From: Hydrogenovibrio halophilus DSM 15072
GTDB taxonomy: Bacteria; Pseudomonadota; Gammaproteobacteria; Thiomicrospirales; Thiomicrospiraceae
Reading direction: 5' to 3'
NCBI RefSeq assembly: GCF_000384235.1
Contig: NZ_KB913033.1
Span: 62,001 to 126,000 of the forward strand
Length of the DNA stretch: 64,000 nt
Shown in pieces: positions 1,540 to 60,652 of this stretch (positions are counted from its first letter, which is position 1; every line of letters starts with the position of its first letter). The notes under the pieces are model-generated. The model was not told the DNA's origin. It ran no database searches and saw only the letters and a program-made list of their open reading frames with translations. The position numbers and the translations under genes were made by a program.

Positions 1540-1551
1540 ACCAGGCCTGGT
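1540..1551. repeat. 12-bp palindrome ACCAGGCCTGGT, copy 1
   Basis: Exact copy in the gap between the periplasmic-protein gene and rpiA, flanked by AAATT on the left and AAAAC on the right. It belongs to the window-wide palindrome family described in the findings. Confidence 0.9.
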
Positions 1552-1709
1552 AAAACAGGTCGGGGGTTTTCACTCCCGCCTATACTTTTTCCCGCCAAAT
1601 AACTAAAATGTCCGGATATTCCAAGGTTCGCCCACGCATTCATGCGCTTTCGCATGCTTGATGGTGCGCGCAACAAGAACAAACTGATCCAAATTCGTGA
1701 GGGCTGATT

Positions 1710-2375
1710 ATGACACAGAACGAACTCAAACAAGCCGTGGCCAAAGCGGCCATTGACTATGTGGAAGCCGATACCTACATCGGTGTGGGGACCGGTTCCA
1801 CCGCCAATTTTTTCATTGATGCACTGGCTGAAATCAAAGGCAAGATCAAGGGTGCGGTCGCCAGTTCCGAAGCCACCGCAGAGCGCCTGAAAGGCCACGG
1901 CATTCCGGTACTCGACCTCAACAGCGTCGACGAAATGTCGGTCTACATTGATGGCGCGGACGAAGCCAACCCGCATCTGCACCTGATCAAAGGCGGCGGC
2001 GGCGCCCTCACGCGTGAAAAAATCGTACTGGCCGTGGCCAAAAAATTCGTCTGTATTGCCGATGACAGCAAAAAAGTCGACATTCTGGGCAAATTCCCGC
2101 TGCCGGTCGAGGTCATTCCCATGGCGCGCAGCTATGTGGCGCGCGAAATCGTCAAACGTTTTGGCGGCGAGCCGGTGCTGCGGGAAGGCTTCACCACCGA
2201 CAACGGCAATGTGATTCTTGACATTCATGGCCTCCAGATTACCGATCCGGTGGCGATGGAAAACGAACTCAACTCCATTGTCGGCGTGGTCACCAATGGC
2301 TTGTTTGCCGCCCGTCCGGCGGACGTATTCCTTTGCGGCACGGCGGAGGGCGTCGAAACCCTCACCGCTCAGTAA
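1710..2375 (+). CDS. rpiA: Ribose-5-phosphate isomerase A
   Basis: Interconverts ribose 5-phosphate and ribulose 5-phosphate in the non-oxidative pentose phosphate pathway, and in the Calvin cycle if one is present. At 221 residues it matches the normal RpiA length. It shows the family blocks [12 protein letters not shown] (phosphate loop), [10 protein letters not shown], the catalytic DGADEAN motif and [12 protein letters not shown]. The start is the ATG after GTGAGGGCTGATT. It is a cytoplasmic single gene with its own leader, followed 32 bp later by a thioredoxin-like gene on the same strand. Confidence 0.97.
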
Positions 2376-2407
2376 TCATCCATTTCATACGGATAAGGAA
2401 AGGCATT

Positions 2408-2911
2408 ATGCAGCAGCTTGGACGCAAACTTTTTGTCTTCGTGGTCGTGGCCTTGCTGGGGACCTTGATCTATTTGACCCTGTTTTCCCAGGGTCTGGGC
2501 AAAGCCCCCGCGATCACGGTCAAGACCAACAGCGGTGAAGAACTGGCTTTGAACCAGCCTAAAAAGCCGGTGCTGGTCAACTTCTGGGCCACCACCTGCC
2601 CCGGTTGCATTGCCGAAATGCCGCATCTGGCCGAAATCAAACGCGACTTTGGTGACGACTTCGAGCTGGTCGCCATTTCCATGGATTACGACCCGGCCGA
2701 ACAGGTGCAGAAGTTCATCGACAACAACCCTTATCCGTTTTCCTATGTCATGGATTCGGACGGCAAGCTGGCTCAGGCTTTTGGCGAGATCCAACTGACG
2801 CCGACCAGCTTTCTGATCGCGCCCAACGGCAACATCGTCTATCAGAAAATCGGTGAGGTCGACTTTGATCTGGTTCGCAATAAAATCGATCAAATGACCC
2901 CCGACCTGTAA
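2408..2911 (+). CDS. TlpA/ResA-type membrane-anchored thioredoxin
   Basis: This 167-residue protein has one N-terminal membrane anchor (residues ~8-27) and a periplasmic thioredoxin-like domain. The redox motif is CPGC in the context [14 protein letters not shown], typical of the TlpA/ResA/DsbE group that reduces cysteines for cytochrome c maturation or copper-site assembly. The cis-proline block is present (LTPTSFLI). The start chosen is the ATG behind AAGGAAAGG; the longer open frame upstream overlaps the rpiA end and lacks a ribosome site. The substrate cannot be told from sequence, though the Sco1/PCu(A)C genes nearby make cytochrome biogenesis plausible. Confidence 0.88.
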
Positions 2912-2976
2912 CGTACAACGACTGTCATCGGGTTTTGACCATAAAACCCTTCCCTTCTAAACCAACAGGACTCTTT

Positions 2977-4260
2977 ATGAAACGCTCCCACACTCTTTTT
3001 GAAAAAGCTCAGATTCACATCCCCGGCGGCGTTAATTCGCCAGTGCGCGCCTTCAAAGGCGTCGGCGGCGATCCGGTTTTCTTCAAAAAAGCCACGGGAC
3101 CTTACCTGATTGACGAAGACGACCGTCAGTACATTGATTACGTCGGTTCCTGGGGACCGGCCATTGTCGGCCACGCCCACCCGGAAGTGATCAAAGCGGT
3201 GCAGGATCAGGCCGAAAACGGTCTGTCCTTCGGTGCGCCCACCGAAATCGAAACCACCATGGCCGACAAGATGTGTGAACTGGTGCCTTCCATGGACATG
3301 GTGCGCATGGTCAACTCCGGTACCGAAGCCACCATGACCGCCATTCGACTGGCACGCGGTGCCACAGGTCGTGACAAAATCATCAAGTTTGAGGGCGATT
3401 ACCACGGTCATTCCGATTCGCTTCTGGTCAAGGCCGGTTCCGGTGCCTTAACCCTGGGCGAACCGTCTTCGCCGGGGGTGCCCGAATCCCTGGCCAGTCT
3501 GACCCTGACCCTGACCCACAATGACAGCGATCAGCTGCGCCAGGTCTTTGCCGAAATCGGCCATGAAATCGCCTGTGTGATTGTGGAGCCGGTGGCAGGC
3601 AACATGAACTGCATCCCTCCCGAGCAGGGCTTTCTGGAAACCCTGCGAGAAGTTTGTGACGAATCCGGCGCGGTGCTGATTTTTGACGAAGTCATGTGTG
3701 GTTTCCGCGTGGCGCTGGGCGGCGCTCAGGAACGTTACGGCGTGACCCCGGACCTGACCACCTTTGGCAAAGTCATCGGTGGCGGCATGCCCGTGGGCGC
3801 TTTTGGCGGCAAAAAATCGGTCATGCAGCACATTTCGCCTCTGGGCCCGGTGTATCAGGCCGGCACCCTGTCCGGCAATCCCATTGCCATGGCGGCGGGT
3901 CTGAAAACCCTGGAACTGATTTCCGAGCCGGGCTTTTTTGACGATCTGGAAGCCAAAGCCAACCGACTGATGCACGGTTTTGCCGCGGCCGCGCAGGAAA
4001 ACGGCGTGCCTCTGGCCACCAACACCGTGGGCGGCATGTTCGGTTATTTCTTCACCGACGATGCCAATCCGATCCGTCGCTTTGCCCAGGTCAGTCAGTG
4101 TGACCTGGAACGCTTCAAGACTTTTTATCACGGCATGCTGGACGAAGGCGTGTATCTGGCGCCGTCGGCGTTTGAAACCGGGTTTGTTTCCGCCGCCCAC
4201 AGCAACGAAGACATCGACAACACCATCGTGGCGGCACGCAAAGTCATGGCCAATCTGTAA
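2977..4260 (+). CDS. hemL: Glutamate-1-semialdehyde 2,1-aminomutase
   Basis: A PLP enzyme of the C5 heme pathway, converting glutamate-1-semialdehyde to 5-aminolevulinate. At 427 residues it is full length. It has the N-terminal [17 protein letters not shown] block, the substrate-gating loop [33 protein letters not shown], and the PLP-binding lysine at residue 265 in [17 protein letters not shown]. The start is the ATG preceded by CAGGA; an upstream in-frame ATG would give a 14-residue extension not seen in the family. A strong GC hairpin follows the stop. Confidence 0.98.
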
Positions 4261-4272
4261 TCCCTTTCCAAT

Positions 4273-4294
4273 CCGGCCCGGTTTTCCGGGCCGG
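4273..4294 (+). terminator. GC hairpin after hemL
   Basis: Perfect 9-bp stem CCGGCCCGG / CCGGGCCGG around a TTTT loop, 12 bp after the hemL stop. There is no U-tract, so it could also act as a 3'-stabilising or rho-assisted hairpin. Confidence 0.6.
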
Positions 4295-4310
4295 CACTTG
4301 CCTTGATCCC

Positions 4311-4874
4311 ATGTCAGAAACGCATTCAGCCGACGACTTGATCCGTTTGTTCAACCAAACCTTTTCCCTGTCGGAAAACACCCGACTGGTCTGTTGCGAA
4401 CCCGAACCCATTTACCGACCCGCCGATAATGACACACCCTATCATCGCATTGTTTTCGCGCACGGCTTTTTTGCCAGCGCCCTGCATGAGATTGCGCACT
4501 GGTGTGTGGCCGGCAAAGCCCGGCGTCAGCTGGAAGATTTCGGCTATTGGTATCAGCCGGATGGGCGCACGAACGAGCAGCAGGCTTTATTTGAGAAGGT
4601 GGAAGTACGACCTCAGGCGTTTGAATGGATTTTTTCTCAGGCGGCGGGATTTCGGTTTCACTTCAGTGCCGACAATTTGGAAGGCGACGCCGGGCCGTCA
4701 GACGCCTTCAAAGACCATGTCTGGCAAACGGTGCAGCGGATGCTGACCGACGGATTGCCCGCTCGTGCACATCAATGGGCTCAGGTACTGGCGACCACCT
4801 ATTCGCAAGGCCGGTTTCCAGTCACCACGGACTTTGATCGTCCGCTGCACCCTGACAACAACCAGGCCTGGTAA
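4311..4874 (+). CDS. epmC: Elongation factor P hydroxylase (YfcM/EpmC family)
   Basis: EpmC hydroxylates the beta-lysylated lysine of elongation factor P, the last step of EF-P modification. The 187-residue protein has the family core: RIVFAHGFFASALHEIAHW with the metal-binding HExxH-like HEIAH, then GKARRQLEDFGYWYQPDGR, the acidic FEKVEVRPQAFEWIF block and CDNLEG-like ADNLEG. Neither epmA nor epmB is in the window. The last four codons and the first base of the stop codon lie in a copy of the 12-bp palindrome ACCAGGCCTGGT, which gives the C-terminus NQAW. Confidence 0.93.
   Translation: MSETHSADDLIRLFNQTFSLSENTRLVCCEPEPIYRPADNDTPYHRIVFAHGFFASALHEIAHWCVAGKARRQLEDFGYWYQPDGRTNEQQALFEKVEVRPQAFEWIFSQAAGFRFHFSADNLEGDAGPSDAFKDHVWQTVQRMLTDGLPARAHQWAQVLATTYSQGRFPVTTDFDRPLHPDNNQAW
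4861..4872. repeat. 12-bp palindrome ACCAGGCCTGGT, copy 2
   Basis: Exact copy inside the 3' end of epmC. It encodes the final QAW, and its last T is the first base of the TAA stop. It is followed by AAAATC, as at other copies. Confidence 0.9.
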
Positions 4875-4882
4875 AATCTGGG

Positions 4883-4981
4883 TTATTTTCGCTTGGATTG
4901 AGACTTTTTCGGCGGCCTGATCGCCCAGACGATCAGGACGACAATCAGCAGCAAAAGCCCCACTTCAATCAAGGCAAACAC
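4883..4981 (-). CDS. Putative 32-residue single-span membrane protein
   Basis: A tiny open frame starting at GTG directly after the GGDEF-like gene (5-bp gap), with GAGGA about ten bases upstream, so it could be translationally coupled. It encodes a short N-terminus, one hydrophobic span (LIEVGLLLLIVVLIVWAI, residues ~4-21) and a basic tail (RPPKKSQSKRK). This is the typical layout of small bacterial inner-membrane proteins. No homologue is recognised and there is no expression evidence; a chance ORF is possible, but the ribosome site and composition argue for a real gene. Confidence 0.5.
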   Translation of the reverse strand: MFALIEVGLLLLIVVLIVWAIRPPKKSQSKRK

Positions 4982-4986
4982 CCGGT

Positions 4987-6015
4987 TCAGTCCTCCACAG
5001 AATCGATCTGCACCATTTGCAGGTGGTCATCGTCTTTGAGCTTTTGCAGCCCCAGATGGATCTTATCTCCAACGGTACGGCCTTCGTCATACACAAAGAT
5101 CTGCACAATCACCGCGTTCAGTTCGATGTTTTTGATCGCCTGATCGGTGCCCTTGACCATGATTTTTTTCTTTTTGATCGCCGAAATGATGTTTTCAATA
5201 TAGTCGGGTAATTGATGCCCCGGCACACTGGCGGGTGGCAGGACCGCAATGGCGTCTTCTTCGTAGCGCATCATTTGCCAGTCTTTCAGCGTTTTGGCTT
5301 GAATCATCTTCACCACCAGACGGATGATGCTGTCGCCCAGCAGCCAGGAATATTTGTCGTTGTAATAACGGAGTTGCTTGATATCAAACACCACCAGCTG
5401 ACGTTTACTCACCACCCCGGACATGGACTGATCGATCACATCCACCAGGGTCTTTTCAAAATAGTCCTTGTCCGGCAGACCGGTCAAAAAGTCGCGGGTC
5501 AGGCTTTGCTCGATTTCAATCACTTCCTGACGAATGGTTTCCAGGTCTTCCAGGTTCTGTTGCATCCACAGCGTGGTTTCGACCGAATTGTTTTCCACCG
5601 ATTTCAGCTCGCCCACCGCTTCGGCCAGGATGATTTCCACCGATTCCCGGGTACTGGCCAGTGACAGACTCTCACGCATGTCGCCCAGATTGACCTGGTG
5701 TTGCTGAACCAGCTCCACAAAATCGTGAATTTTGCTCTTCAGATCCTTGGCCCGGTCGATGATGCTGGAGGTTTGCTGGTCGATACCCAGGCTCTGATTG
5801 AAATGCGCCTTGAGCACAAAATTTTCATACAGTTTTTCATAAGCCGATTCGGAAATGGGCTGGCCGGTGGACATCAGAGATTTCAGGCGCGCATTCAAAG
5901 GGCCATTGGTCCCGGCAAAATACAGATACCAGATGGTGAGGGTCACATGCGACAGCGTGATCCCCTCCTGTTCAATGGTTTCCATGGCCTTTTGCACAGC
6001 CGCCGCGTTGTTCAT
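4987..6015 (-). CDS. Degenerate GGDEF-domain protein
   Basis: This 342-residue soluble protein has a helical N-terminal region of ~170 residues and a C-terminal GGDEF-type domain beginning at RDFLTGLPDKDYFEK. The GGDEF signature loop itself is replaced by RYEEDAIAVL, so the two glycines that bind GTP are missing and diguanylate cyclase activity is unlikely. Such proteins often act as GTP or c-di-GMP sensors or as scaffolds. The start is taken as the ATG one base after the mpl stop (TGAGATG); a GTG 18 bases further upstream is also in frame. It sits in an operon mpl, this gene, small membrane ORF. Confidence 0.8.
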   Translation of the reverse strand: MNNAAAVQKAMETIEQEGITLSHVTLTIWYLYFAGTNGPLNARLKSLMSTGQPISESAYEKLYENFVLKAHFNQSLGIDQQTSSIIDRAKDLKSKIHDFVELVQQHQVNLGDMRESLSLASTRESVEIILAEAVGELKSVENNSVETTLWMQQNLEDLETIRQEVIEIEQSLTRDFLTGLPDKDYFEKTLVDVIDQSMSGVVSKRQLVVFDIKQLRYYNDKYSWLLGDSIIRLVVKMIQAKTLKDWQMMRYEEDAIAVLPPASVPGHQLPDYIENIISAIKKKKIMVKGTDQAIKNIELNAVIVQIFVYDEGRTVGDKIHLGLQKLKDDDHLQMVQIDSVED

Positions 6016-6016
6016 C

Positions 6017-7426
6017 TCAGACACGGTCTTCACCTTGTTGTTTCAGTTCGTTTAAAAGTTTCTGCGGCAATCCGCCAAAACCGCCGTTGCTCATCAAAAC
6101 CACCTGATCTCCCGGCTGGAGCATGGTTGTGAGCTGAGCCAGCAGCCCTTCGTAACTGTCGGCCACCGAGACGCTTGCCTGAAAGTCGTCCTCAGGCAAT
6201 GACCAGCCCCAATCCGGGTCAATAAAAGCCCATACCGCATCGGCGGCATCAAACGACCTGGGCAGACGCGCTCGGTGCATCCCCAATCGCATGGTGTTGG
6301 AGCGAGGCTCAAACACCGCGACCAGCCGCCCGTTCAGGCCAGACGCCTGCATACGGGCACGCAAGCCTTTCAGGGTGCTTTCGATCGCGGTGGGGTGATG
6401 CGCAAAGTCATCGTACACCCGAATGCCCCGAACCTCACCCAAATCACTGAGCCGACGCTTGACCCCGCCAAATTGATGCAGGGCATCGATGGCGACCTTG
6501 ACCGGGACCCCGCAATGCTGTGCCGCCATCACCGCGGCCATGGCATTGCGCATATTGTGTTGGCCCGTCAGGGACCAGTGCACCGTGCCCAACGACTGCC
6601 CGGCCTGGTGCAAAGCAAAAACGCCGCCATCTTCACGAATTGGCTGATAGGCCCAGGTCGAATCGTTCTCAATGCCATCGTCATTCTGTGCCGAAAACCG
6701 GCTGATTTGAGACCAGCATCCCTGTTCGAGCACGGCGTCCAAAGCGGCCTCATCGGCCGGAGCAATCAGCAAACCGTTGCCCGGCACGGTACGCACCAGG
6801 TGATGAAACTGGGTCTGAATGGCCGCCAGATCGGCAAAAATATCGCCATGATCAAACTCAAGGTTATTGAGAACACAGGTTCTGGGGCGGTAATGCACAA
6901 ACTTGGAGCGTTTATCAAAAAACGCCGTGTCGTATTCGTCTGCCTCAATCACAAAAAACGGCGACTGACCCAATCGGGCCGAGACCCCGAAGTTTTCCGG
7001 CACGCCGCCGATCAGAAACCCGGGGTTCAACCCGGCGTATTCCAGAATCCAGGCAATCATGGCCGAAGTGGTGGTTTTGCCATGGGTGCCGGCCACCGCC
7101 ACCACCCAGCGATCCTGCAAAAGGTGGTCCGACAGCCATTGCGGCCCGGAGGTATAACGCTGTTGCGTGTTGAGCACGGATTCCACCGACGCATGGCCGC
7201 GACTGAGCGCGTTACCGATAATGACCTGATCCGGCTCGGACTGCAAAGGGTCCTGAGCATAGTCGCTGACCTCGATACCGGCCTGCGCCAGCTGGGTACT
7301 CATCGGCGGGTACAGCGCCTGATCTGAGCCGCTGACGTCGTACCCCATGGCTTTGGCCAATTGCGCCAATCCGCCCATAAAGGTGCCGCCCACGCCCAGA
7401 ATATGCAGTTTTGAATGATCGCTCAT
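6017..7426 (-). CDS. mpl: UDP-N-acetylmuramate:L-Ala-gamma-D-Glu-meso-DAP ligase
   Basis: Mpl recycles peptidoglycan by attaching the salvaged tripeptide to UDP-MurNAc in the cytoplasm. The 469-residue Mur-ligase fold shows ILGVGGTFMGGLAQLAKAMG (Rossmann domain), the ATP-binding VAVAGTHGKTTTSAMIAWIL, EADEYDTAFFDKRSKF, and the C-terminal YDDFAHHPTAIE block typical of Mpl. The open frame extends 21 codons upstream through a copy of the palindrome, but the ATG used gives the usual MSDHSKLHILGVGG start. It is divergent from rnd and leads an operon with the GGDEF-like gene. Confidence 0.96.
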   Translation of the reverse strand: MSDHSKLHILGVGGTFMGGLAQLAKAMGYDVSGSDQALYPPMSTQLAQAGIEVSDYAQDPLQSEPDQVIIGNALSRGHASVESVLNTQQRYTSGPQWLSDHLLQDRWVVAVAGTHGKTTTSAMIAWILEYAGLNPGFLIGGVPENFGVSARLGQSPFFVIEADEYDTAFFDKRSKFVHYRPRTCVLNNLEFDHGDIFADLAAIQTQFHHLVRTVPGNGLLIAPADEAALDAVLEQGCWSQISRFSAQNDDGIENDSTWAYQPIREDGGVFALHQAGQSLGTVHWSLTGQHNMRNAMAAVMAAQHCGVPVKVAIDALHQFGGVKRRLSDLGEVRGIRVYDDFAHHPTAIESTLKGLRARMQASGLNGRLVAVFEPRSNTMRLGMHRARLPRSFDAADAVWAFIDPDWGWSLPEDDFQASVSVADSYEGLLAQLTTMLQPGDQVVLMSNGGFGGLPQKLLNELKQQGEDRV

Positions 7427-7458
7427 ACTCGCGGAGTCATGCCTTTGACTGAGTGTTA

Positions 7459-7470
7459 ACCAGGCCTGGT
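7459..7470. repeat. 12-bp palindrome ACCAGGCCTGGT, copy 3
   Basis: Exact copy in the divergent mpl/rnd intergenic region, 33 bp upstream of the mpl start and followed by AAAAAC. Here it lies in a promoter region, so a terminator role alone does not explain the family. Confidence 0.9.
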
Positions 7471-7634
7471 AAAAACAGACCAAGCACAAATTTTATGAAA
7501 TCTTCGGGCTAGAAATTCGCCCAATATAAACGAAAATGCCGCCCTTCGCCAATAAGTTCGCTCTATGAGGCCAGTGGCCTTCCCTGTGACAAGGATGGCT
7601 TGTCAATCCATGCCGGGTCGAATAAACTGCGTTC

Positions 7635-8792
7635 ATGACCCAACCTATCACCACGATTCCTGAGATCACCACCCCCGAGGCGCTCACCGACTTTTGTGCG
7701 AGCTTGCACCAGACCCCATGGATTGCGGTGGACACCGAATTCCTGCGGGTCAACACCTATTATCCCAAACTGTGCCTGATTCAGATCGCCACCCCGGAAG
7801 GAAATGTGGCCCTGATCGACCCACTGGCTTTTGACGACTTAAGCGCGTTGTGGGCGCTTTTCAAGGATCCCGATCTGGTCAAGGTCTTTCACAGCGCCCG
7901 TCAGGACCTGGAGGTGCTGGCACTGCACGGCTGTCTGCCAACGCCGATCTTTGACACCCAGATTGCCGCATTGTTTCTGGGCTACGGTCACCTGGCCGGT
8001 CTGGCCAGAGTGGTGGAAGCCGAACTGAACTGGCCGATGACCAAAGATCAGACCCGGACCGATTGGTCGCAGCGCCCGTTGCAGCCCGACCAATTGCGCT
8101 ACGCGCTCGAAGACGTGACCAGCCTGGCGGAACTTTACCCTCGCATACTGGCGCAGCTGGACCCAGAGCAAAAACAGGCTCTGGAAGAAGATTTTGCGCT
8201 GTTGCTGGACCCGTCCTTATACCAGAGCGCACCGGAAAAAGCCGGTTACCGTTTGAAAGCCCTGTCCAAACTGGGCGCCAAAAATCAGGCGATTGCACTG
8301 AAACTGGCCGACTGGCGCGAACGTTATGCGATCGAGCACGACCGTCCCAGACGCTGGGTACTCGGTGACGACACCCTGATTGCCATCGCCAAGCGACCGC
8401 CCAAAACCGTTCAGGCACTCTACAAGGTGCCACAGATCAAACCCTCCAGTGTTCGTGAATTCGGCGACAGTTGGATCGCATTGATTGACGAGGTGTTTCA
8501 AGCGCCCGACACCTGGCCGGTGAAAGCGCCCAAGCCCCCACCAGCATTGCCACAGGAAGAAGTGGCACTGACCCTGGCTCTGGCCTGGCGCGACCAGGTC
8601 ACCCAGGCCTATGGCCTCAACACAGGCAACTGGGTGGGCAAGGCCGAACTGCTGACGCTTTTGCGCGACCCAACGCCTCCCACCCTGCTCGGCTGGCGGC
8701 GACTGTTGCTGGAAGTGCCCTTGCGCCGGTTTTTCGATCAGAAATCCACGTTCAAGTGGACCGACAAAGGGTTGCAGGAAACCCTCTCCTGA
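7635..8792 (+). CDS. rnd: Ribonuclease D
   Basis: A 3'-5' exoribonuclease that trims tRNA and other stable RNA 3' ends. The 385-residue protein has the DEDD exonuclease domain: VDTEFLRVNTYYPKLCLIQIA (Asp/Glu), HSARQDLEVL, the third motif FDTQIAALFLGYG, and YALEDVTSLAELY with the last Asp. Helical HRDC-like regions follow in the second half. Length matches E. coli RNase D. It is divergent from mpl and is followed by a perfect GACAACGTTGTC palindrome directly after the stop. Confidence 0.95.
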   Translation: MTQPITTIPEITTPEALTDFCASLHQTPWIAVDTEFLRVNTYYPKLCLIQIATPEGNVALIDPLAFDDLSALWALFKDPDLVKVFHSARQDLEVLALHGCLPTPIFDTQIAALFLGYGHLAGLARVVEAELNWPMTKDQTRTDWSQRPLQPDQLRYALEDVTSLAELYPRILAQLDPEQKQALEEDFALLLDPSLYQSAPEKAGYRLKALSKLGAKNQAIALKLADWRERYAIEHDRPRRWVLGDDTLIAIAKRPPKTVQALYKVPQIKPSSVREFGDSWIALIDEVFQAPDTWPVKAPKPPPALPQEEVALTLALAWRDQVTQAYGLNTGNWVGKAELLTLLRDPTPPTLLGWRRLLLEVPLRRFFDQKSTFKWTDKGLQETLS

Positions 8793-12057: not shown

Positions 12058-12096
12058 CCCGATTTTGACCAGGCCTGGTCAAAATCGGGTTTTTTT
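12058..12096. terminator. Perfect 32-bp palindromic terminator built on ACCAGGCCTGGT
   Basis: The 12-mer ACCAGGCCTGGT (12068-12079) is the centre of a perfect palindrome. Each 16-base arm reads CCCGATTTTGACCAGG outward to centre. The palindrome is followed by a run of seven T residues, so it is a good intrinsic terminator for the DUF481 gene. Here the repeat forms the hairpin tip. Confidence 0.85.
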
Positions 12097-14176: not shown

Positions 14177-14629
14177 TTAACCAGGCCTGGTGTGATCGTT
14201 CAACGCGTCCATGGCTTCGTTGGCCAGATCGTCTGCCAGCTCGTTTTGCGGGTGTCCGGCATGGCCTTTGACCCACTCCCAGGTCACCTGATGACGCCCA
14301 ACGGCTTGATCCAGCGCCTGCCAGAGTGACCGATTCTTGACCGGTTTTTTCGCCGCCGTACGCCACTGATTACGCTTCCAGTTGGCCAGCCACTGAGTGA
14401 TGCCGTTTTTGACGTATTGTGAATCGGTGGTCAGCACCACCTCGCAGGGTCGTTTCAGCGCTTCCAGCGCTTCAATCGCTGCGGTCAATTCCATCTGATT
14501 GTTGGTGGTTTCGGGGGCACTGCCTTTGAGGCATTTCCGGTGGCCGTCATACTCCAGCACCGCACCCCAGCCACCCGGCCCGGGATTGCCCCGACAGCCG
14601 CCATCGGTATAAATAAACACTTTTTTCAT
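14177..14629 (-). CDS. rnhA: Ribonuclease HI
   Basis: Degrades the RNA strand of RNA-DNA hybrids. The 150-residue protein has the catalytic carboxylates in [41 protein letters not shown] and, near the end, [11 protein letters not shown]. The handle region [22 protein letters not shown] is present. The gene ends inside a palindrome copy that encodes TRPG just before the stop. It overlaps the upstream methyltransferase by four bases (ATGA), indicating a two-gene operon. Confidence 0.97.
14180..14191. repeat. 12-bp palindrome ACCAGGCCTGGT, copy 5
   Basis: Exact copy forming the last four sense codons of rnhA (TRPG) directly before its TAA stop, and 17 bp after the convergent dnaQ stop. A TTTTAA stretch flanks it on the dnaQ side. 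Confidence 0.9.
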
Positions 14630-18025: not shown

Positions 18026-18037
18026 ACCAGGCCTGGT
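18026..18037. repeat. 12-bp palindrome ACCAGGCCTGGT, copy 6
   Basis: Exact copy preceded by seven T residues and ending only four bases before the slt ATG, so it occupies the place of the ribosome-binding site. No better Shine-Dalgarno sequence is visible; the AGG within the palindrome may serve. Confidence 0.9.
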
Positions 18038-24105: not shown

Positions 24106-24134
24106 ACCAGGCCTGGTGATTTCTGCCAGGCCTG
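24106..24134. repeat. 12-bp palindrome ACCAGGCCTGGT, copy 7, with a degenerate neighbour
   Basis: An exact copy (24106-24117) preceded by five T residues lies between the two cyclophilin genes. Eight bases further a degenerate copy GCCAGGCCTGAT (24125-24136) follows, giving a tandem arrangement also seen near 30.6 kb. Confidence 0.85.
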
Positions 24135-24167
24135 ATTGTTTTCTTTACCCAGACGGATGAAACCGCT

Positions 24168-24680
24168 ATGTCAACGATCGTTTTTGAAACCTCAATGGGC
24201 CACATCACCATTGAACTCGACCATGAAAAAGCGCCCATCGGCGCGGCCAACTTTCTGCAGTACGCACAGGACGGTTTTTTCAACGGCACCATTTTTCACC
24301 GGATCATCCCCGGCTTTATGGTGCAAGGCGGCGGCATGCTGCCGGGCATGGAACCCAAACCCACAGGCGATCCGATTGAAAACGAAGCCGACAACGGCCT
24401 CAAAAACGTGCGCGGCAGCCTGTCCTATGCCCGCACCATGGACCCGAATTCCGCCACCACTCAGTTTTTCATGAACCTGGTCGACAACGACTTTCTGGAC
24501 CATCGCAGCAAGGACATGCAGGGTTGGGGCTACGCGGTATTCGGTCGGATCACAGACGGGCTGGACGTGATTGACCGCATGGCACAGGTGGACACCACCA
24601 GCCGTCGCGGTCATCAGGACGTGCCGGTCGAAGACATTGTGATCGAAAACACACGTATCGAAAACGCCGAGGACTCGTGA
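24168..24680 (+). CDS. ppiB: Cytoplasmic cyclophilin-type peptidyl-prolyl isomerase
   Basis: A 170-residue cyclophilin without a signal peptide: GHITIELDHEKAPIGAANF, GTIFHRIIPGFMVQGGG with catalytic Arg, and SYARTMDPNSATTQFFMN. It matches E. coli PpiB (164 residues). Its stop overlaps the lpxH GTG start (GTGA), so ppiB-lpxH form a coupled pair, an order seen widely in gammaproteobacteria. Confidence 0.95.
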   Translation: MSTIVFETSMGHITIELDHEKAPIGAANFLQYAQDGFFNGTIFHRIIPGFMVQGGGMLPGMEPKPTGDPIENEADNGLKNVRGSLSYARTMDPNSATTQFFMNLVDNDFLDHRSKDMQGWGYAVFGRITDGLDVIDRMAQVDTTSRRGHQDVPVEDIVIENTRIENAEDS

Positions 24681-25405
24681 CTCAGGCGCACAGCATCCGC
24701 TTAACCGCCGATGTGCATTTGTTGCCCGAAACCACGGCGATCTCCTCCATCAACCGGTCATTCCACCGGTTTCTGGACGACTGCCGTGATCGGCGCATCG
24801 ACGCCTTGTATGTCTTGGGCGATCTGTTTGAAATGTGGGTGGGCGATGACATCGGCCTGCACGACTACGCCGTCAGCATCGAGAAGCTGCGCCAACTGAG
24901 TGACTCCGGCACCCGGATTTATCTGCTGGAAGGCAATCGTGATTTTCTGATGCGCCGGGCCTTTTATCAGGCCACCGGCATCCGGCAGATCAAGCCGCCA
25001 TACCCTTTGCTTATGAGTGGAAAACACTGGTTATTGCTGCACGGCGACGAACTTTGCACCGACGACCGAGCCTTTCAGCGCATGCGCCGTATTTTGCGCA
25101 ATCCGCTGGTGATGTGGGCGTTTCTGCGTTTGCCGGGGCCCACCCGTCAACGCATCGGACGGGCAATGCGGGACCAATCCCAAAAACAGGGCAGCAACAA
25201 ACCGCAAAACATCATGGACGTCAGCCCGCAAGCGGTCGAACGCCTGTTGCAAACACACCCGCAAACCGATTGGATTCTACACGGCCACACCCACCGGCCC
25301 GGCATTCATGGCCGGCGCTGGGTACTGGGCGACTGGCGTCCCCAGGCCTGGTACGTGGAAGGAAGGACCGATCACGGATCGGCGTCATGGCATTATTGGC
25401 GATAA
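24677..25405 (+). CDS. lpxH: UDP-2,3-diacylglucosamine pyrophosphatase
   Basis: Makes lipid X in lipid A biosynthesis at the inner membrane. The 242-residue calcineurin-like phosphoesterase has LTADVHLLPE, LGDLFEMWVGDD, EGNRDFLM, LHGDELCTDD and LHGHTHRP, all Mn-binding family motifs. It starts at GTG overlapping the ppiB stop. A near-copy of the palindrome (CCCAGGCCTGGT, 25341-25352) encodes PQAW near the C-terminus. Confidence 0.95.
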   Translation: MTQAHSIRLTADVHLLPETTAISSINRSFHRFLDDCRDRRIDALYVLGDLFEMWVGDDIGLHDYAVSIEKLRQLSDSGTRIYLLEGNRDFLMRRAFYQATGIRQIKPPYPLLMSGKHWLLLHGDELCTDDRAFQRMRRILRNPLVMWAFLRLPGPTRQRIGRAMRDQSQKQGSNKPQNIMDVSPQAVERLLQTHPQTDWILHGHTHRPGIHGRRWVLGDWRPQAWYVEGRTDHGSASWHYWR

Positions 25406-27136: not shown

Positions 27137-27430
27137 TCAATCTTCGCATTGATACCAGGCCTGGTAAGGCCCCATGTTGTACACCGCATCGAAGCCCATC
27201 TGATTCAACATCTGCGTCGCCATCTGCGAGCGCGAACCAGAGCGACAGAACACAATCACCGGGCGGTCCTTGCTCAATTCTTTTTCCGCCGTCTGCTGCA
27301 GAGTCTGCAAAGGCAGATTGATCGCGCCCGGCAACCGGCTCATTTCAAATTCCTCTGGGGTGCGCACGTCCACCAGATAGGCGTTGTGGTTTTTAATCAG
27401 CGCTTTGCATTCTTCACAAGGGGTAAACAT
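27137..27430 (-). CDS. Single-domain rhodanese-like sulfurtransferase
   Basis: A 97-residue rhodanese domain with the active-site Cys in FCRSGSRSQMATQML and the family start LVDVRTPEEFEMSRLPGAINLPL. It is probably a cytoplasmic persulfide carrier. Two extra cysteines near the N-terminus (PCEECK) are unusual and may bind metal or form a disulfide. A palindrome copy within the 3' end encodes YQAWY. It is close upstream of the symporter and downstream of pgpA on the same strand. Confidence 0.88.
   Translation of the reverse strand: MFTPCEECKALIKNHNAYLVDVRTPEEFEMSRLPGAINLPLQTLQQTAEKELSKDRPVIVFCRSGSRSQMATQMLNQMGFDAVYNMGPYQAWYQCED
27154..27165. repeat. 12-bp palindrome ACCAGGCCTGGT, copy 8
   Basis: Exact copy within the coding 3' end of the rhodanese gene, translated as QAW, the same reading as in epmC. 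Confidence 0.9.
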
Positions 27431-30592: not shown

Positions 30593-30624
30593 ACTAGGCC
30601 TGGTTAAAACCTGCCAGGCCTGGT
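30593..30624. repeat. Tandem near-copies of the 12-bp palindrome
   Basis: ACTAGGCCTGGT (30593-30604) and GCCAGGCCTGGT (30613-30624), each one base off consensus and each followed by TAAAAC. They lie just after the PII stop codon, spaced by 8 bases, about one helical turn between halves. Confidence 0.8.
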
Positions 30625-43541: not shown

Positions 43542-43553
43542 ACCAGGCCTGGT
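43542..43553. repeat. 12-bp palindrome ACCAGGCCTGGT, copy 9
   Basis: Exact copy 39 bp upstream of tolQ, preceded by a TTTTTG run, in the expected promoter/leader region of the Tol-Pal operon and 7 bp before the 161-bp palindromic element. Confidence 0.9.
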
Positions 43554-46019: not shown

Positions 46020-46031
46020 ACCAGGCCTGGT
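46020..46031. repeat. 12-bp palindrome ACCAGGCCTGGT, copy 10
   Basis: Exact copy between the nadA stop and the ruvC start, preceded by CTTTTG. Because both genes are on the minus strand it lies after nadA and before ruvC. Confidence 0.9.
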
Positions 46032-51877: not shown

Positions 51878-52207
51878 TCATTCAAAGAACAGCGAATATG
51901 GCCGCTCGATGGCCGACAGCACCTCGCCCACACTGAAGGTACGGACCGCTTCAAAGGTTTTCTGCCCACCCACATACACGGCCACCACCGGCAAGCTCAT
52001 TACCCCGGACTGGGCACACAATGCGGTATGAGTCTCACAATCCACATAAACACGGTCCAGCTTGGGAAAATGCTCGGCCAGCGCCTGATCCAGCTTGGGT
52101 TTGAGCACCTGACACACCTGACAGTTCGCACCACCATACAAAACCACCAGGCCTGGTGCATTTTGCATCATGCTTTGCCACTGCTCGTCACTCTCAAGGG
52201 TTTTCAT
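51878..52207 (-). CDS. Thioredoxin-like protein (CxxC)
   Basis: The 109-residue thioredoxin-fold protein has an unusual redox motif CQVC in LYGGANCQVCQVLKP instead of WCGPC. It has the cis-proline SLPVVAVYVGG and extra cysteines (DCETHTALCAQ). It is cytoplasmic, since there is no signal. The ATG follows AAAGGAACAAAT, better than one eight codons upstream. A palindrome copy lies near the 5' end, read as APGLV. Partner unknown. Confidence 0.85.
   Translation of the reverse strand: MKTLESDEQWQSMMQNAPGLVVLYGGANCQVCQVLKPKLDQALAEHFPKLDRVYVDCETHTALCAQSGVMSLPVVAVYVGGQKTFEAVRTFSVGEVLSAIERPYSLFFE
52147..52158. repeat. 12-bp palindrome ACCAGGCCTGGT, copy 11
   Basis: Exact copy inside coding sequence near the 5' end of the thioredoxin-like gene, in a different reading frame (APGLV) from the QAW copies. 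Confidence 0.9.
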
Positions 52208-54065: not shown

Positions 54066-54092
54066 CAAAAAAACCGGCCGAAGCCGGTTTTT
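54066..54092 (-). terminator. Terminator after the small periplasmic-protein gene
   Basis: Stem AAACCGGC / GCCGGTTT with a CGAA tetraloop and U-tracts on both sides. Read on the minus strand it follows the downstream end of the 54.1 kb gene and isolates the DUF455 gene. Confidence 0.85.
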
Positions 54093-54114
54093 CATCCATC
54101 ATGCCAAGTGACCG

Positions 54115-54489
54115 TTATTTGCTGCCGTCGCCAGCGAAATAATAGTTGGCCATCAGATAAGGCGTACCACGGAACTGCTTGGCGTCGATGGCATCAAACA
54201 GGGTAGCCCATTTTTTGCGATCGGCCGCATCCATGACAGAATAAGGGTTCACACCTTTGGTTGCGTCCCCATATTTGGCTTCGATGCCTTTCAACTCAGC
54301 ATAACAATCTTTCAGCGATGTTTTCTGCTCGTAGTCACGACCGGCTGACGTGCCTTGATCCTTGGTCAATTCAACGATGGTGCTGCCATCGGCCACACAC
54401 TGATCATAGACCGAATCCGCGGCCTGAACATTCATCGCCAACGCCAGGGTCGCACCGGCGAACAGAGTTTTAAGTGTTAACTGCTTCAT
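54115..54489 (-). CDS. Small periplasmic protein of unknown function
   Basis: A 124-residue protein with a clean signal peptide (LKTLFAGATLALAMNVQAA) and two cysteines (YDQCVADG and LKDCYAEL) probably disulfide-linked in the periplasm. The mature part is hydrophilic (SAGRDYEQKT, MDAADRKKWATLFDAI). The ATG is preceded by GGAG; the longer frame upstream has no ribosome site. It stands alone, with a terminator at its 3' end. No family is recognised. Confidence 0.75.
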   Translation of the reverse strand: MKQLTLKTLFAGATLALAMNVQAADSVYDQCVADGSTIVELTKDQGTSAGRDYEQKTSLKDCYAELKGIEAKYGDATKGVNPYSVMDAADRKKWATLFDAIDAKQFRGTPYLMANYYFAGDGSK

Positions 54490-54634
54490 TCCATCTACTC
54501 CAAATATTAGGACTTGATTATTTACCCGAGTTATTTTCTGTCTTTTCCGGAAAAATTGCAACCCAAAAAATGGTTCTGCGGGGCTAGAAATCGTTACGAC
54601 GCAATAAATTCTTTTTATTGCCAGCCGCTTTCCA

Positions 54635-55111
54635 TTATGTGGCGCGGGTTAGCCGCATCAGCGAAACGCCCCACCAGGCCACGAAGGCCCAACTGAATAA
54701 AAACAGCAGCTGTGAGACCCCGTGCCAGAATGAAAAATTCATTCCCCAGTAAAGTGCCAGATCCGGCGATTTGAGTTCGGCCATCAAGGGCGAGACCCAG
54801 AGGGCATTCAGAGTCAAAGCCACAAACGCCACCAACAACAGAAAAGGCGAGCGATGACGGCGAATGGTGAGCGAACGCCAACCCAGCGCCCATAAAGCCA
54901 GCAGCCCCAAAAAGGCACCGAAATACGCCACCTGAAGCAGGTGCGCCATAAGCTGCCCCGCCACCTCAGCCGGCAGCAGGGAAAACAGCACACCGCCTGC
55001 AACATAGCCCAGCGCCCAGTGCCAGACCACATAAGCACTGACCAGCCATTGCGCCCAGATCAAGGCGCGGAACGAGGCCGTATTCCGGTCGCTTGCAGAC
55101 ATCGGCATCAC
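54635..55111 (-). CDS. DUF4149-type membrane protein
   Basis: A 158-residue protein with four hydrophobic spans and the motif [20 protein letters not shown] in the middle, with charged loop RRHRSPFL and a final [20 protein letters not shown] span. The layout matches DUF4149/TMEM205-like proteins, which often follow greA. It overlaps the greA stop by four bases, so carB-greA and this gene could be one transcript. Function unknown. Confidence 0.78.
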
Positions 55112-55587
55112 AGGTACTGAATTTCAACGATTTCGTAGTCAATGTTGCCGCTGGGGGCCTTGACCACAATCTCGTCGCCTTCTTCCTTGCCGATCAGAGC
55201 ACGGGCAATCGGTGAATTGACCGAAATTTTATTATGATCGAGATCGGCCTCTTCTTCGCCCACAATCTTGTAAGTCACTTCCTGATCGTTGTCCACATTC
55301 AACACCGTGACGGTCGAACCAAACACCACCTTGCCATTGGGCGTCAGCTTGGTCACATCAATGATCTGCACACTGCCCAGAATCGATTCAACCTGCTTGA
55401 TCCGCGCTTCAATCAGCCCCTGCTGTTCTCGAGCCGCATGGTATTCCGCATTTTCTTTCAAGTCTCCGTGCTCACGTGCTTCGGCAATGGCCTGGGTCAC
55501 GGTCGGACGGTCTTCTTTTTTGAGTTTTTCCAGCTCCTGCTTGAGCTTGTCCGCACCGTCTTTGGTCATCGGATGTCGTTGCATCAT
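55108..55587 (-). CDS. greA: Transcript cleavage factor GreA
   Basis: Rescues backtracked RNA polymerase. The 159-residue protein has the coiled-coil tip acidic block [21 protein letters not shown], the GreA C-terminal domain ([30 protein letters not shown]) and normal length. It follows carB by 61 bp. The order carB-greA is conserved in gammaproteobacteria. Confidence 0.97.
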
Positions 55588-55648
55588 ACATTCCCCTCCG
55601 TGTCTGTTGCGACCGACGGTCGCAATGGTCTCAACCCGAACGCCAGCT

Positions 55649-58600
55649 TCACCCGGAATGGGTGGTCTGCAGACAGGTCACCTTGGTATTGTTGTGATAG
55701 GCCATGGCCGACACCATCGCCAGCGCACCCGCCATGGTCGTGGTGTAGCAGACTTTGTGCATCAGGGCTTCGCGCCGAATGCTGGACGAGTCCTTGATGC
55801 TGACGGAACCGTCGGACGTGTTCACAATCAGGTCCACTTCTTCGTTGACAATCGCGTCCACAATGTTCGGACGCCCTTCTGTCACCTTGTTGACCACTTC
55901 ACACTCAATGCCGTGGCTTTCCAGTGTTTTGGCGGTGCCACGCGTGGCCAGAATGGTAAAGTCTTTTGCCACCAGATCTCTGGCCAGACCGACCACTTTC
56001 TCACGATCGGCCTGACGCACACTCAAAAACGCCTTGCCGGAAGTGGGCAGAACGGTGCCGGCACCCAACTGGGACTTGTGATAGGCCTCGGCAAAGGTAT
56101 CGCCCACGCCCATCACTTCGCCAGTGGATTTCATTTCCGGCCCCAGAATCGGATCGACGCCCAGGAACTTAATGAACGGGAACACCGCTTCCTTGACCGA
56201 ATAGTGCTTGGGGCGCACCTCGGAGGTAAAGCCCTGATCCACCAGCTTCTGCCCCACCATGCAACGCGCCGCGATCTTCGCCAGCGGGTAGCCAATGGCC
56301 TTGGACACAAACGGCACGGTACGCGAGGCCCGAGGATTGACCTCCAGCACATAGATTTCTTCGCCCTTGACCGCGAACTGGGTGTTCATCAACCCCACCA
56401 CATTCAGCGCTCTGGCCATTTTTTCCACCTGCACCCGAATTTCATCCTGGATGTGCATGGGGATACTGTAAGGCGGCAGCGAACAGGCCGAATCACCGGA
56501 GTGAATCCCGGCCTGTTCGATGTGCTCCATCACCCCACCAATGACCACGGTTTCGCCATCGCTGACCGCGTCCACGTCCAGCTCCACCGCGTCGTCCAGA
56601 AAGCGGTCCAGCAACACCGGGGAGTCATGGGAGACCTTGACCGCTTCGGTCATATAACGGTGCAGATCGGTGTCGTTATAGACAATTTCCATGGCCCGGC
56701 CACCCAACACATAGGAAGGGCGCACCACCAGCGGATAACCGATTTCATTGGCCAGCGCCAAAGCCTGATCCTCACTGCGCGCGGTCCGGTTGGGCGGCTG
56801 CTTGAGGCCCAGCTGCGTCAGCATTTTCTGGAAGTGCTCCCGGTCTTCGGCCAGATCAATCGATTCGGGCGAGGTGCCGATAATGGGCACGCCCGCTTCT
56901 TCCAGATCCTGCGCCAGCTTCAATGGGGTTTGACCGCCATACTGCACAATCACGCCACTGGGTTTTTCCAGCTCCACAATTTCCAGCACGTCTTCCAGTG
57001 TCAAAGGCTCGAAATAGAGTCGATCGGAGGTATCGTAATCGGTGGAAACGGTTTCCGGGTTGCAGTTGACCATAATGGTTTCGTAGCCATCGTCCCGCAG
57101 GGACAGCGCCGCATGCACACAGCAATAATCGAACTCAATGCCTTGGCCGATCCGGTTGGGACCGCCGCCCAGCACCATGATTTTCTCTTTGTCTGAAGGT
57201 TCGGCTTCACACACCTCTTCGTAGGTGGAATACATGTACGCGGTCGAAGTTTTAAACTCGGCGGCACAAGTGTCCACGCGCTTGTAGACCGGGCGCACAT
57301 TCAGTGTGTGGCGGAACTTGCGAATAAAGGCCGCGTCCGTGCTCAGCAGTTTGGCCAGACGGTTATCGGAAAAACCTTTGCGCTTCAACTGACGCAACAA
57401 AGGTTCATCCAAAGCATCCAGACCACGCTGTTTCAGGTCGTCTTCGCAATCGATCAATTCCTGAATCTGGGACAGAAACCAGGGATCGATCCGGGAAATC
57501 TCATAAACCGTTTCCAGATCCCAACCGGCACGAAACGCATCGGCCACATACCACAAACGCTCCGGACCGGGAGTTCGCAGTTCGTGACGCAAGGTGTCCT
57601 TGACCTCCTTGTCGTCCATCTGCGCCAGAGGCATGATCTCATCCAGCCCGTCCTTGTCGGTCTCCAGACCGCGCAAGGCTTTCTGCAGCGATTCCTGAAA
57701 GTTACGGCCCATGGCCATGACTTCGCCCACCGACTTCATCTGCGTGGACAGACGGGTATCGGCCTGGGCAAATTTTTCAAAGGTAAAGCGCGGAATTTTG
57801 GTAACCACATAGTCAATCGACGGTTCGAACGACGCCGGAGTCGCCCCATCAGTGATGTCGTTCTGCAACTCGTCCAGGGTATACCCCACGGCGAGCTTGG
57901 CCGCCACCTTGGCAATCGGGAAACCGGTCGCTTTGGAGGCCAATGCCGACGAGCGCGAGACCCGCGGGTTCATTTCAATGATGATCATGCGGCCGCTTTC
58001 GGGGTTGATCGAGAACTGGACATTGGAGCCGCCGGTTTCCACACCAATTTCACGCAGTACCGCCAGCGAGGCGTTACGCATGATCTGATATTCCTTGTCG
58101 GTCAATGTCTGGGCCGGTGCCACCGTAATCGAATCGCCGGTATGCACGCCCATCGGGTCCAGATTTTCAATCGAACAGATGATGATGCTGTTGTCGTTTT
58201 TGTCGCGCACCACCTCCATTTCGTATTCTTTCCAGCCGAGAATCGACTCCTCAATCAGCAGTTCCTTGGTCGGCGACAAATCGAGTCCGAATTTGCAGAT
58301 CTGCTCGAATTCCTCTCGGTTGTAGGCAATGCCACCACCGGAACCACCCAAGGTAAACGAAGGACGGATGATGGTCGGGAAGCCGACCTTCTGCTGAATT
58401 TCCCAGGCCTCGTCCATATTGTGGGCCACAGCGGAAACCGGCATATCCAGACCGATTTTTTCCATCGCCGCGTGGAAACGCTGGCGGTTTTCTGCCTTGT
58501 CAATCGCATCGGCATTGGCCCCGATCAACTCCACACCCAGCTCATCGAGCACACCGTGATTGTGCAGATCCAGCGCACAGTTCAATGCAGTCTGCCCGCC

Positions 58601-58870
58601 CATGGTCGGCAAAATCGCATCGGGCTTTTCCTTTTCCAGAATGCTTTTGACCGTGGGCCATTCAATCGGCTCGATGTAGGTCGCATCCGCCATTTCCGGG
58701 TCGGTCATAATCGTGGCCGGATTGGAGTTGACCAGAATCACCCGATAGCCTTCTTCTCTCAAGGCCTTGCACGCTTGCACGCCCGAGTAATCAAACTCAC
58801 AGGCCTGGCCGATGATAATGGGACCGGCGCCAATGATTAAAATGCTTTGTATGTCCGTTCGTTTTGGCAT
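55649..58870 (-). CDS. carB: Carbamoyl-phosphate synthase large subunit
   Basis: Makes carbamoyl phosphate for arginine and pyrimidine synthesis. The 1073-residue protein has two homologous ATP-grasp halves: first half [17 protein letters not shown] and [16 protein letters not shown], second half [17 protein letters not shown] and [16 protein letters not shown]. They are joined by an oligomerisation region. The C-terminal MGS-like allosteric domain ([16 protein letters not shown]) should bind UMP and ornithine. It lies 16 bp after carA. Confidence 0.98.
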
Positions 58871-58886
58871 CTTGCGTCTCGTCCTT

Positions 58887-60032
58887 TTAAGCGTGTTGGT
58901 GCTGGGTCATGTCATCGATAAAGGCATCAAACAGTGGTGCCACATCATGCGGGCCGGGGCTGGCTTCCGGATGCCCCTGAAAACTGAACGCCGGCTGATC
59001 CTTGAAGCGGATGCCTTGCAGCGAGCCGTCAAACAGCGACACATGCGTCACCGCCACATGATCGGGCAAACTGTCGGATTCGACCGCAAAACCGTGGTTC
59101 TGGGAGGTGATCATGACCTTGCGGTCGGCCAGATTCTGCACCGGATGGTTGGCCCCGTGGTGGCCGAATTTCATTTTGATGCTGCTTGCGCCAGCGGCCA
59201 ATGCCAGCAACTGATGCCCCAGACAGATCCCGAACAGCGGAATCCGTTTTTCCAGCAGCACCTGAATCGCTTCAATCGCATAGTCACACGGCTGCGGATC
59301 GCCTGGCCCGTTGGACAGGAACACCCCGTCCGGGTTCAGCGCCAGAACGTCTTCCACCCGGGTTTTGGCAGGCACCACCGTCAGCTTGCAGCCGCGATCG
59401 GCCAGCATCCGCAAAATATTGTGTTTGATCCCGTAGTCGTACGCCACCACATGAAACCGTTGCGCGTCTGAACGGTCGGCATGACCGCCTTCCAGCGACC
59501 AGGTGCCCTCGGTCCATTCGTACACCCGGTCGGTGGTCACGGCCTGCGCCAGATCCAGACCTTTCAGTCCGCTGAACTCCTGTGCCAGGCGAACAGCGCG
59601 CTGCTCGTCTTCTTCTGTCAACGCCTCTCCGGCCACAATCGCCCCCGACTGTGCGCCCTTGTCGCGCAAAATCCGGGTCAAGGCCCGAGTGTCGATGTCG
59701 GCAATGGCCACCACGTTCTGATCGGCCAGATAATCGGGCAAAGACTGTTGCGCCCGAAAGTTGCTCATGCGTGCCGGACAATCTTTGACAATCAGGCCCT
59801 GCGCCATAATGGATCCCGACTCACGGTCGTCGTCATTGACCCCGACATTGCCAATGTGCGGATAGGTCAATGTCACAAGCTGTTTGTAATAAGAAGGATC
59901 GGTCAAAATTTCCTGATAGCCGGTCATGGAGGTATTGAACACCACCTCGCCCACCGTCTGTCCGGCGACTCCCAGTGAAGTGCCTCGAAAAATCGTGCCG
60001 TCTGCCAACGCGAGAATTGCTGTGTCTGTCAT
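58887..60032 (-). CDS. carA: Carbamoyl-phosphate synthase small subunit
   Basis: The glutaminase subunit. The 381-residue protein has the N-terminal domain ([32 protein letters not shown]) and a class I amidotransferase domain with catalytic Cys in [15 protein letters not shown] and the His in [13 protein letters not shown]. The ATG gives the family start; 16 further codons upstream are open. A T-rich hairpin in the leader may attenuate transcription. Confidence 0.97.
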
Positions 60033-60110
60033 GGATGTGTGCCCTGCTTGCCAAAGTCGCTCTGTCAAACCGGGGGTCAATCGCCCGTGATGCTTTTACC
60101 GCCCCCATAT

Positions 60111-60152
60111 AAAAAAACGGAGCCAATTCCCTCTCAGGAACTCACTCCGTTT
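60111..60152 (-). promoter_or_regulatory. Possible attenuator hairpin in the carAB leader
   Basis: On the minus strand an outer stem AAACGGAG / CTCCGTTT encloses an inner TTCC / GGAA stem and is followed by a run of seven T residues, the shape of an intrinsic terminator. It lies about 80 bases before the carA ATG and after any likely promoter, so it could terminate transcription in the leader. No leader peptide was identified. Confidence 0.5.
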
Positions 60153-60400
60153 CTTACTATGATCTGCGGCGGTATCACAGGCATTTCATCGAACCCCAAT
60201 CAGCGAAAAGCCATAATCGAATTATTGCGCGGATTGTAATGCATTCACCGGGATAAGTCCACCGAAATCATTGTGACCTCATATGGGTTTGTCTGGTTTC
60301 GTGTCCCATACTCTATGGCGATTTAGGGCACTGCACTGGCTTGCCCAATGCCCGTTTAAACGTTACCATTGTGTAACATTTCAAATAGGGGCTTTCATCC
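60153..60400. other. Upstream region between carA and the DUF2798 gene
   Basis: No gene is seen. The region must hold the carA promoter (minus) and the promoter of the small membrane gene (plus). A small inverted repeat GTTAC-N6-GTAAC (60362-60377) lies just before the latter and might be an operator. Nothing else is recognisable. Confidence 0.5.
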
Positions 60401-60631
60401 ATGCTGTCGCAACGCTACCAACGTCTGGTGCAACCACTTTTGATGTCATTGTTTATGACCGTTCTGATGACCTTCGTCATCACCTGGGTCAATACCGGCC
60501 TGGACGCTGGCTTTGCCGCTCGCTGGTGGCAGGCTTTTCTGATTGCCTGGCCGATTGCGTTTGTGGTAATACTGCTCATTATGAAACCGGTCATGCGCCT
60601 GAGCGCCCACATCTGCAGCAAGGAAACGTAA
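60401..60631 (+). CDS. DUF2798 family small membrane protein
   Basis: A 76-residue protein with two spans (LLMSLFMTVLMTFVITWVN and FLIAWPIAFVVILLIM) and the MKPVMRLSAHI ending, the pattern of DUF2798. Its ATG follows AATAGGGGC at suitable distance. The gene stands alone and converges on an efflux pump, with a palindrome copy between. Function unknown. Confidence 0.82.
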   Translation: MLSQRYQRLVQPLLMSLFMTVLMTFVITWVNTGLDAGFAARWWQAFLIAWPIAFVVILLIMKPVMRLSAHICSKET

Positions 60632-60640
60632 GCGGTTTTA

Positions 60641-60652
60641 ACCAGGCCTGGT
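60641..60652. repeat. 12-bp palindrome ACCAGGCCTGGT, copy 12
   Basis: Exact copy between the convergent DUF2798 and efflux-pump genes, preceded by GTTTTA and followed by CAAAAAC. The pairing of T-run and A-run makes a longer hairpin, as at 12.06 kb. Confidence 0.9.

Follow-up and report, generated by a model that had tools for sequence, protein, structure and literature searches.

The DNA analysed here, called the window, is a 64-kb stretch (bases 62001-126000) of G000, a genome that consists of one 2.357-Mb contig. Dispersed among its genes are 12 exact copies of one 12-bp perfect palindrome, ACCAGGCCTGGT, and four near-copies (Table 1), against a mean of 0.01 exact copies in dinucleotide shuffles of the same DNA. 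All 12 copies reported in an initial annotation of the window are present, with 11 of the starts as given and one shifted by a single base (52146, not 52147); the four near-copies are also real, and the annotation was right that chance would leave far less than one exact copy per 64 kb. It had placed eight of the 12 outside genes. Many are, but by the ad hoc hexamer gene caller used below strictly seven are intergenic and five lie in called ORFs, several of which are short or have the copy at one end. A gap between 27 and 43.5 kb, of which the annotation called 30.6-43.5 kb less conserved, is not a foreign island: it contains core genes (argininosuccinate synthase, phosphatidylserine decarboxylase, P-II, queC and tol-pal) and two near-copies at 30.6 kb. 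A 1073-aa protein encoded in the window has its closest named match in a Thiomicrorhabdus MAG (82% identity).

Table 1. Exact and near-copies of ACCAGGCCTGGT in the window (positions are those of the window; G005 is a sister species)
Feature	Position	Context
Exact copy	1540..1551	Intergenic, 40 bp past stop codon; kept in G005
Exact copy	4861..4872	3' end of ORF 4311-4874, convergent gene pair; kept in G005
Exact copy	7459..7470	5' edge of ORF 6017-7483 / divergent spacer; kept in G005
Exact copy	12068..12079	In extended hairpin followed by T-run (terminator-like); kept in G005
Exact copy	14180..14191	3' end of ORF 14177-14629; not kept in G005 (indel)
Exact copy	18026..18037	Intergenic, 29 bp past stop codon, 4 bp before next called ORF; kept in G005
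Exact copy	24106..24117	Intergenic, 14 bp past stop codon; kept in G005
Exact copy	27154..27165	Near 3' end of short ORF 27137-27430, encodes QAW; kept in G005
Exact copy	43542..43553	Intergenic; orthologous G005 spacer without copy
Exact copy	46020..46031	Intergenic; kept in G005
Exact copy	52146..52157	Near 5' end of short ORF 51878-52207; kept in G005, flanks near-identical
Exact copy	60641..60652	42-bp convergent spacer; kept in G005
Near-copy GCCAGGCCTGAT (2 mismatches)	24125..24136	19 bp from the 24106 copy
Near-copy CCCAGGCCTGGT (1 mismatch)	25341..25352	Within ORF 24677-25405
Near-copy ACTAGGCCTGGT (1 mismatch)	30593..30604	12 bp past P-II gene
Near-copy GCCAGGCCTGGT (1 mismatch)	30613..30624	20 bp from the 30593 near-copy

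The observation in the window is real, and the initial annotation understated the case. Pattern searches, the source of all whole-genome word counts given here, found 515 copies of ACCAGGCCTGGT in 2.36 Mb and none of the reversed control. The proposal of a genome-wide motif therefore holds, as the copies are neither near chance in number nor confined to the window. Sequence was read directly for 864 kb of G000 and for samples of 4-540 kb per relative. The 864 kb contain 180 copies, where Markov models of order 1 to order 4 predict 0.05-0.45 (0.45 at order 3), and the runner-up among 12-bp palindromes has only 4. The ACCAGGCCTGGT family supplies the most over-represented 8-, 10- and 12-mer in the DNA tested. 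An extreme genome-wide excess of one short word is a feature of uptake sequences, and a perfect, highly iterated palindrome is a feature of HIP1-type repeats. The word is also sharply defined: one-mismatch variants are scarce in the 864 kb (48 vs 180 exact), resembling the kingDUS of K. oralis, for which allowing one mismatch adds just 21% (PMC3630211).

The copies are distributed unevenly with respect to genes. By the calls of an ad hoc hexamer gene caller, which are approximate, 95 of the 180 copies are intergenic, 10 lie across a gene edge and 75 are genic, in DNA with 12.4% non-coding bases. Convergent spacers have 2.2 copies per kb, divergent spacers 0.46 and genes 0.10. For 79 intergenic copies the stop codon of a neighbouring gene is at most 400 bp away, at a median of 25 bp, and the bias to convergent spacers is repeated for the other dialect in the congener G001. 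Among genic copies the frame ACC-AGG-CCT-GGT is rare (2 of 75); the two remaining frames encode Q-A-W and P-G-L-V. Along the 864 kb the density is uniform and the spacing over-even, with a coefficient of variation of 0.76 vs 0.99 for random placement, and with two pairs less than 500 bp apart where 17.7 are expected. The largest motif gap has the genes for the RNA polymerase beta subunit and elongation factors inside it. Two further stretches are likewise motif-free: one of low GC content, which has an N6 methylase and lies at about 801-814 kb of the genome, and the other a large exoprotein region. We dropped the idea that motif gaps are foreign islands because of these genes in the largest gap and the core genes in the gap of the window, so that gaps are no simple mark of foreign DNA.

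The signal is longer than 12 bp. About four A/T bases stand on each side of the core, in tracts placed some 10 bp, or one helical turn, from the dyad. At positions -3 to -6 on either side, A/T frequencies are 70-95% in intergenic copies and 67-85% in genic copies, and position -2 is mostly T. Genic copies have an A/T fraction of 0.77-0.85 at positions -5 to -3, against a background of 0.44. They thus retain the flanks, with no added base-pairing and with an extended stem in 0% of cases. The presence of the tracts without a longer hairpin indicates that they belong to a signal in double-stranded DNA, not to an RNA structure. The core and these short AT flanks are the only sequence shared between copies.

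Comparison with relatives bears on how the copies arise and how well they are kept. In the sister species G005 (mean protein identity 77%), the 16 copies located in DNA that can be aligned include 14 exact ones, often between strongly diverged flanks. The site is kept in 10 of 12 orthologous spacers; stratification by spacer length and orientation leads one to expect 3.7, and 10 was not reached in any of 20,000 permutations. Genic copies were compared with their orthologues in G001, which lacks ACCAGGCCTGGT: 10 of 11 align without gaps, often with altered residues, which indicates that copies arise by substitution. Origin by substitution and not by insertion is also a property of uptake sequences, and was demonstrated for the USS by an orthologue-alignment type of test (PMC1626085). 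Site sharing between G000 and G001 appeared strong in the raw comparison (odds 18.8, p=2e-4) and showed only a slight excess in orthologous spacers stratified by gene orientation and spacer length (P=0.075); we accordingly do not claim that position is conserved across dialects. The G001 spacer orthologous to the 24106 site has the asymmetric dialect of that genome.

The word itself differs among relatives. ACCAGGCCTGGT occurs in many members of the GTDB family of G000, is absent from several close relatives, and is found 0-1 times in other families of the class. The wider form with a CAGGCCTG core, SCAGGCCTGS, has 198-1,033 copies in 17 family genomes of four genera and 0-29 in the other 18. 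The ends vary, with a GCCAGGCCTGGC variant in G009 and G006, looser RCAGGCCTGY-like ends in G022, and a mixture of CCCAGGCCTGGG, GCCAGGCCTGGC and ACCAGGCCTGGT ends in G002. A genome of another genus (G032) has 1,025 copies of a shorter palindrome, ACCGGCCGGT, which is present 0-14 times elsewhere in the family. Three genomes of the window's own genus (G001, G004 and G011) have an asymmetric consensus, AAAATCTRCCAGGYTGGG, composed of an A-tract plus a core; it is non-palindromic and has no GGCC. The core, CCAGGYTGGG, numbers 403, 331 and 371 in these genomes, respectively, and 1-15 elsewhere in the family. Its copies are split between the two strands (196/207, 143/188 and 169/202), as those of uptake sequences are, and some G001 copies form inverted pairs. 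Polar strand bias relative to replication, of the Chi or KOPS type, is absent, ACCAGGCCTGGT being palindromic and the asymmetric dialect similarly frequent on both strands. None of the known words was found in the rest of the family genomes, namely G007, G008, G012, G013, G015, G017-G019, G021, G024, G025 and G028-G030, and 60 kb sampled from G013 yielded no candidate. The overall picture, dialects among relatives and usually one per genome, is the one known from uptake sequences.

We consider the motif to be probably a DNA uptake signal, unusual in its palindromic form. This reading, made from sequence comparisons, is favoured because the dialects, the origin by substitution, the AT flanks and the even spacing match what is found in Neisseriaceae and Pasteurellaceae. 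The initial annotation had offered an uptake signal, a HIP1-like palindrome, and a chromosome-organising or methylation site; its interpretation is supported, and the first option fits best since relatives have distinct dialects, one of them non-palindromic. The DUS of Neisseriaceae (GCCGTCTGAA and relatives), recognised by ComP, are similar in several ways: each genome has a single short word, repeated hundreds to thousands of times; dialects with a common core extend across the family; copies are genic as well as intergenic; and inverted pairs serve as terminators, such pairs being seen here in the G001 dialect (PMC3630211). They differ in that the commonest dialect here is perfectly palindromic and AT-flanked on either side, and that the present family, with its candidate signal, belongs to a different bacterial class. 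We know of no close precedent for the palindromic form among established uptake signals. The nearest case is S. muelleri, in which two overlapping DUS show dyad symmetry (PMC3630211), and which shows that uptake words may go together with symmetry. The USS of Pasteurellaceae (AAGTGCGGT / ACAAGCGGT) also combine a core with AT-rich flanks at about helical-turn spacing, arise by substitution in coding genes, and form dialects by subclade (PMC1626085); they offer a parallel to the combined features of the motif (PMC1626085; PMC1939737). The USS are, however, asymmetric with one-sided AT tracts, whereas the tracts of the motif are symmetric in the majority of genomes, and an asymmetric A-tract-plus-core form is seen in G001, G004 and G011.

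The competence machinery that uptake calls for is represented in G000 by ComEC (G000:C1:1750540), DprA (862477) and adjacent PilT/PilU (166508, 167575), the ATPase domain of which was checked. Nearly all genomes of the family, motif-less ones included, have ComEC and DprA, which so permit uptake without predicting the motif. No PilT-grade match was found in the motif-rich genomes G002, G010, G016 and G023. A search for PilQ brought no family member to the TIGR02515 cut-off, and a low PilQ score is thus not proof that the secretin is absent. Prepilin-like genes were located, none of them linked to a dialect. The open-licence papers searched contained no mention of the ACCAGGCCTGGT 12-mer, which may have been described earlier in subscription journals, and no report of uptake signals or competence in this family.

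We infer that the recogniser is an uptake receptor, and likewise its identity and the drive that spreads the word. Double-stranded ACCAGGCCTGGT, together with the A/T tracts one turn from the dyad, would be recognised at the cell surface by a receptor that belongs to the type IV pilus or competence system, and DNA with the word would enter more often. Biased uptake and homologous recombination would then spread and maintain the copies, which would settle wherever a base change is tolerated, chiefly just past stop codons. Drift in the specificity of the receptor would lead to the replacement of all copies, giving one dialect per lineage.

The main rival to uptake is a role in organising the chromosome or insulating neighbouring genes, in which a dimeric nucleoid or boundary protein would bind ACCAGGCCTGGT, the half-sites having diverged by lineage. 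Symmetry and tight conservation are natural for such a site: the dyad is perfect, the A/T tracts lie one turn from its centre, spacing is over-even at a uniform density along the 864 kb, the same G005 spacers strongly retain their copies, and gene ends are preferred. We nevertheless hold it to be unlikely, if the most serious of the alternatives. An asymmetric word is used in three congeners and a shorter palindrome in one genome from a different genus, and about 40% of the copies are genic, where they change the encoded residues (QAW or PGLV). The replacement of dialects argues for a drive, since moving a house-keeping DNA-binding protein to a new word at 400-1,000 sites, one at a time within a genus, would be hard without it, and biased uptake would supply it. 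Noc/NBS, MatP/matS and SlmA-type sites are dyad-symmetric and spread over the chromosome, but number tens and are regional; here the sites number 515, their density is uniform in the 864 kb read directly, and dialects differ within a single genus.

An improbable alternative is that the palindrome is HIP1-like and owes its maintenance to a cognate DNA methyltransferase or to a system of repair or restriction. The motif resembles cyanobacterial HIP1 (GCGATCGC) in being a highly iterated palindrome of fixed sequence, with hundreds of copies and a GGCC core, and HIP1 has been linked to orphan methyltransferases (PMC4390886). However, no C5-cytosine methylase (the PF00145 class) was found in G000 or in six motif-bearing relatives (G005, G014, G016, G020, G027 and G032), and the dialect of the three asymmetric congeners is neither palindromic nor GGCC-containing.

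Still less probable is that the copies are primarily terminators or RNA hairpins that end transcripts on both strands. Their location just past stop codons (median 25 bp) and enrichment in convergent spacers would suit this role. A longer hairpin is formed at 21% of intergenic copies vs 0.8% of random intergenic sites, and the 12068 site resembles an intrinsic terminator. The long stem is nevertheless missing from most intergenic copies, and the genic ones (75 of 180) are AT-flanked without any hairpin extension; a run of five T follows 28% of intergenic copies vs 18% of random intergenic sites, and termination needs no single exact 12-mer. Most copies lack the combination of a stable stem and a T-run, and termination was therefore rejected as the main role. 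Use of a subset as terminators would be a secondary role, as it is for DUS. A dispersed small mobile element or REP-like repeat, suggested by dispersal and over-representation between genes, has a negligible chance of being correct: copies have only the core and short AT flanks in common and do not cluster, and an insertion element was rejected because flanks are not shared and genic copies are gap-free against their orthologues.

To our knowledge, and as far as we have found, Neisseriaceae and Pasteurellaceae, two largely host-associated families, are the only ones with established over-represented uptake signals. The nearest named relative of the present family is Thiomicrorhabdus, whose members are sulfur oxidisers. 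The evidence inclines us, by a modest degree, to the view that DNA uptake with self-recognition has a third lineage, independent of the other two, in this Thiomicrorhabdus-related family, and that its signal, a symmetric palindrome in most genomes, has split into palindromic and asymmetric dialects within a single genus. If the motif is not for uptake, it represents a strongly maintained code of 500-1,000 sites across the chromosome that calls for another explanation. A palindromic signal is the same in either orientation, which suggests a dimeric or two-faced receptor. If true, a third case would test whether uptake labels need a host niche, and would open to study the turnover of dialects within one genus and the question of which pilin reads the labels.

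The motif, a 12-bp palindrome and candidate DNA uptake signal, is apparently kept out of genes under strong constraint: the longest stretch without it in the DNA read spans 25.6 kb and contains RNA polymerase and elongation-factor genes. Close pairs of copies are generally avoided, yet the window holds two, spaced 20 bp (pair 1, near-copies) and 19 bp (pair 2, exact and near-copy), about two helical turns in both.

Most relatives compared carry a secretin (~700 aa), ATPase (~500 aa) and pseudopilin cluster, to which no match was found in the H. halophilus genome, in contrast to its sister species G005, the motif-bearing relatives G002 and G014, and others. The missing cluster is probably a type II secretion system, lost in H. 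halophilus. Two genes of a prepilin-like cluster in this genome have very large ectodomains, and the cluster is broken by one gene, at 143482, whose product, judged by eye, resembles a REP-associated transposase.

Coordinates of the features discussed
Feature	Position	Stretches read
Motif pair 1	window 30593, 30613	
Motif pair 2	window 24106, 24125	
Longest motif-free stretch	genome 763-789 kb	L226-L228
Prepilin-like gene cluster	G000:C1:135082-147188	L081-L082

Repeats of very high copy number occur in G014 (L144-L148) and in G004 (L124-L128), which has an asymmetric dialect of the motif; one example, CCGCGGGAGAAA, has 47 counts in 120 kb of G014. They are probably giant repeat proteins. In G032, which has another palindrome dialect, TTTCACGTGAAA/GTTTCACGTGAA is over-represented, with 12 counts on both strands together in 120 kb (G032:C1:1-20000 and 100001-200000; L134-L138, L111). 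The word is similar to the parS consensus, TGTTTCACGTGAAACA, and its copies are perhaps an origin-proximal ParB cluster.
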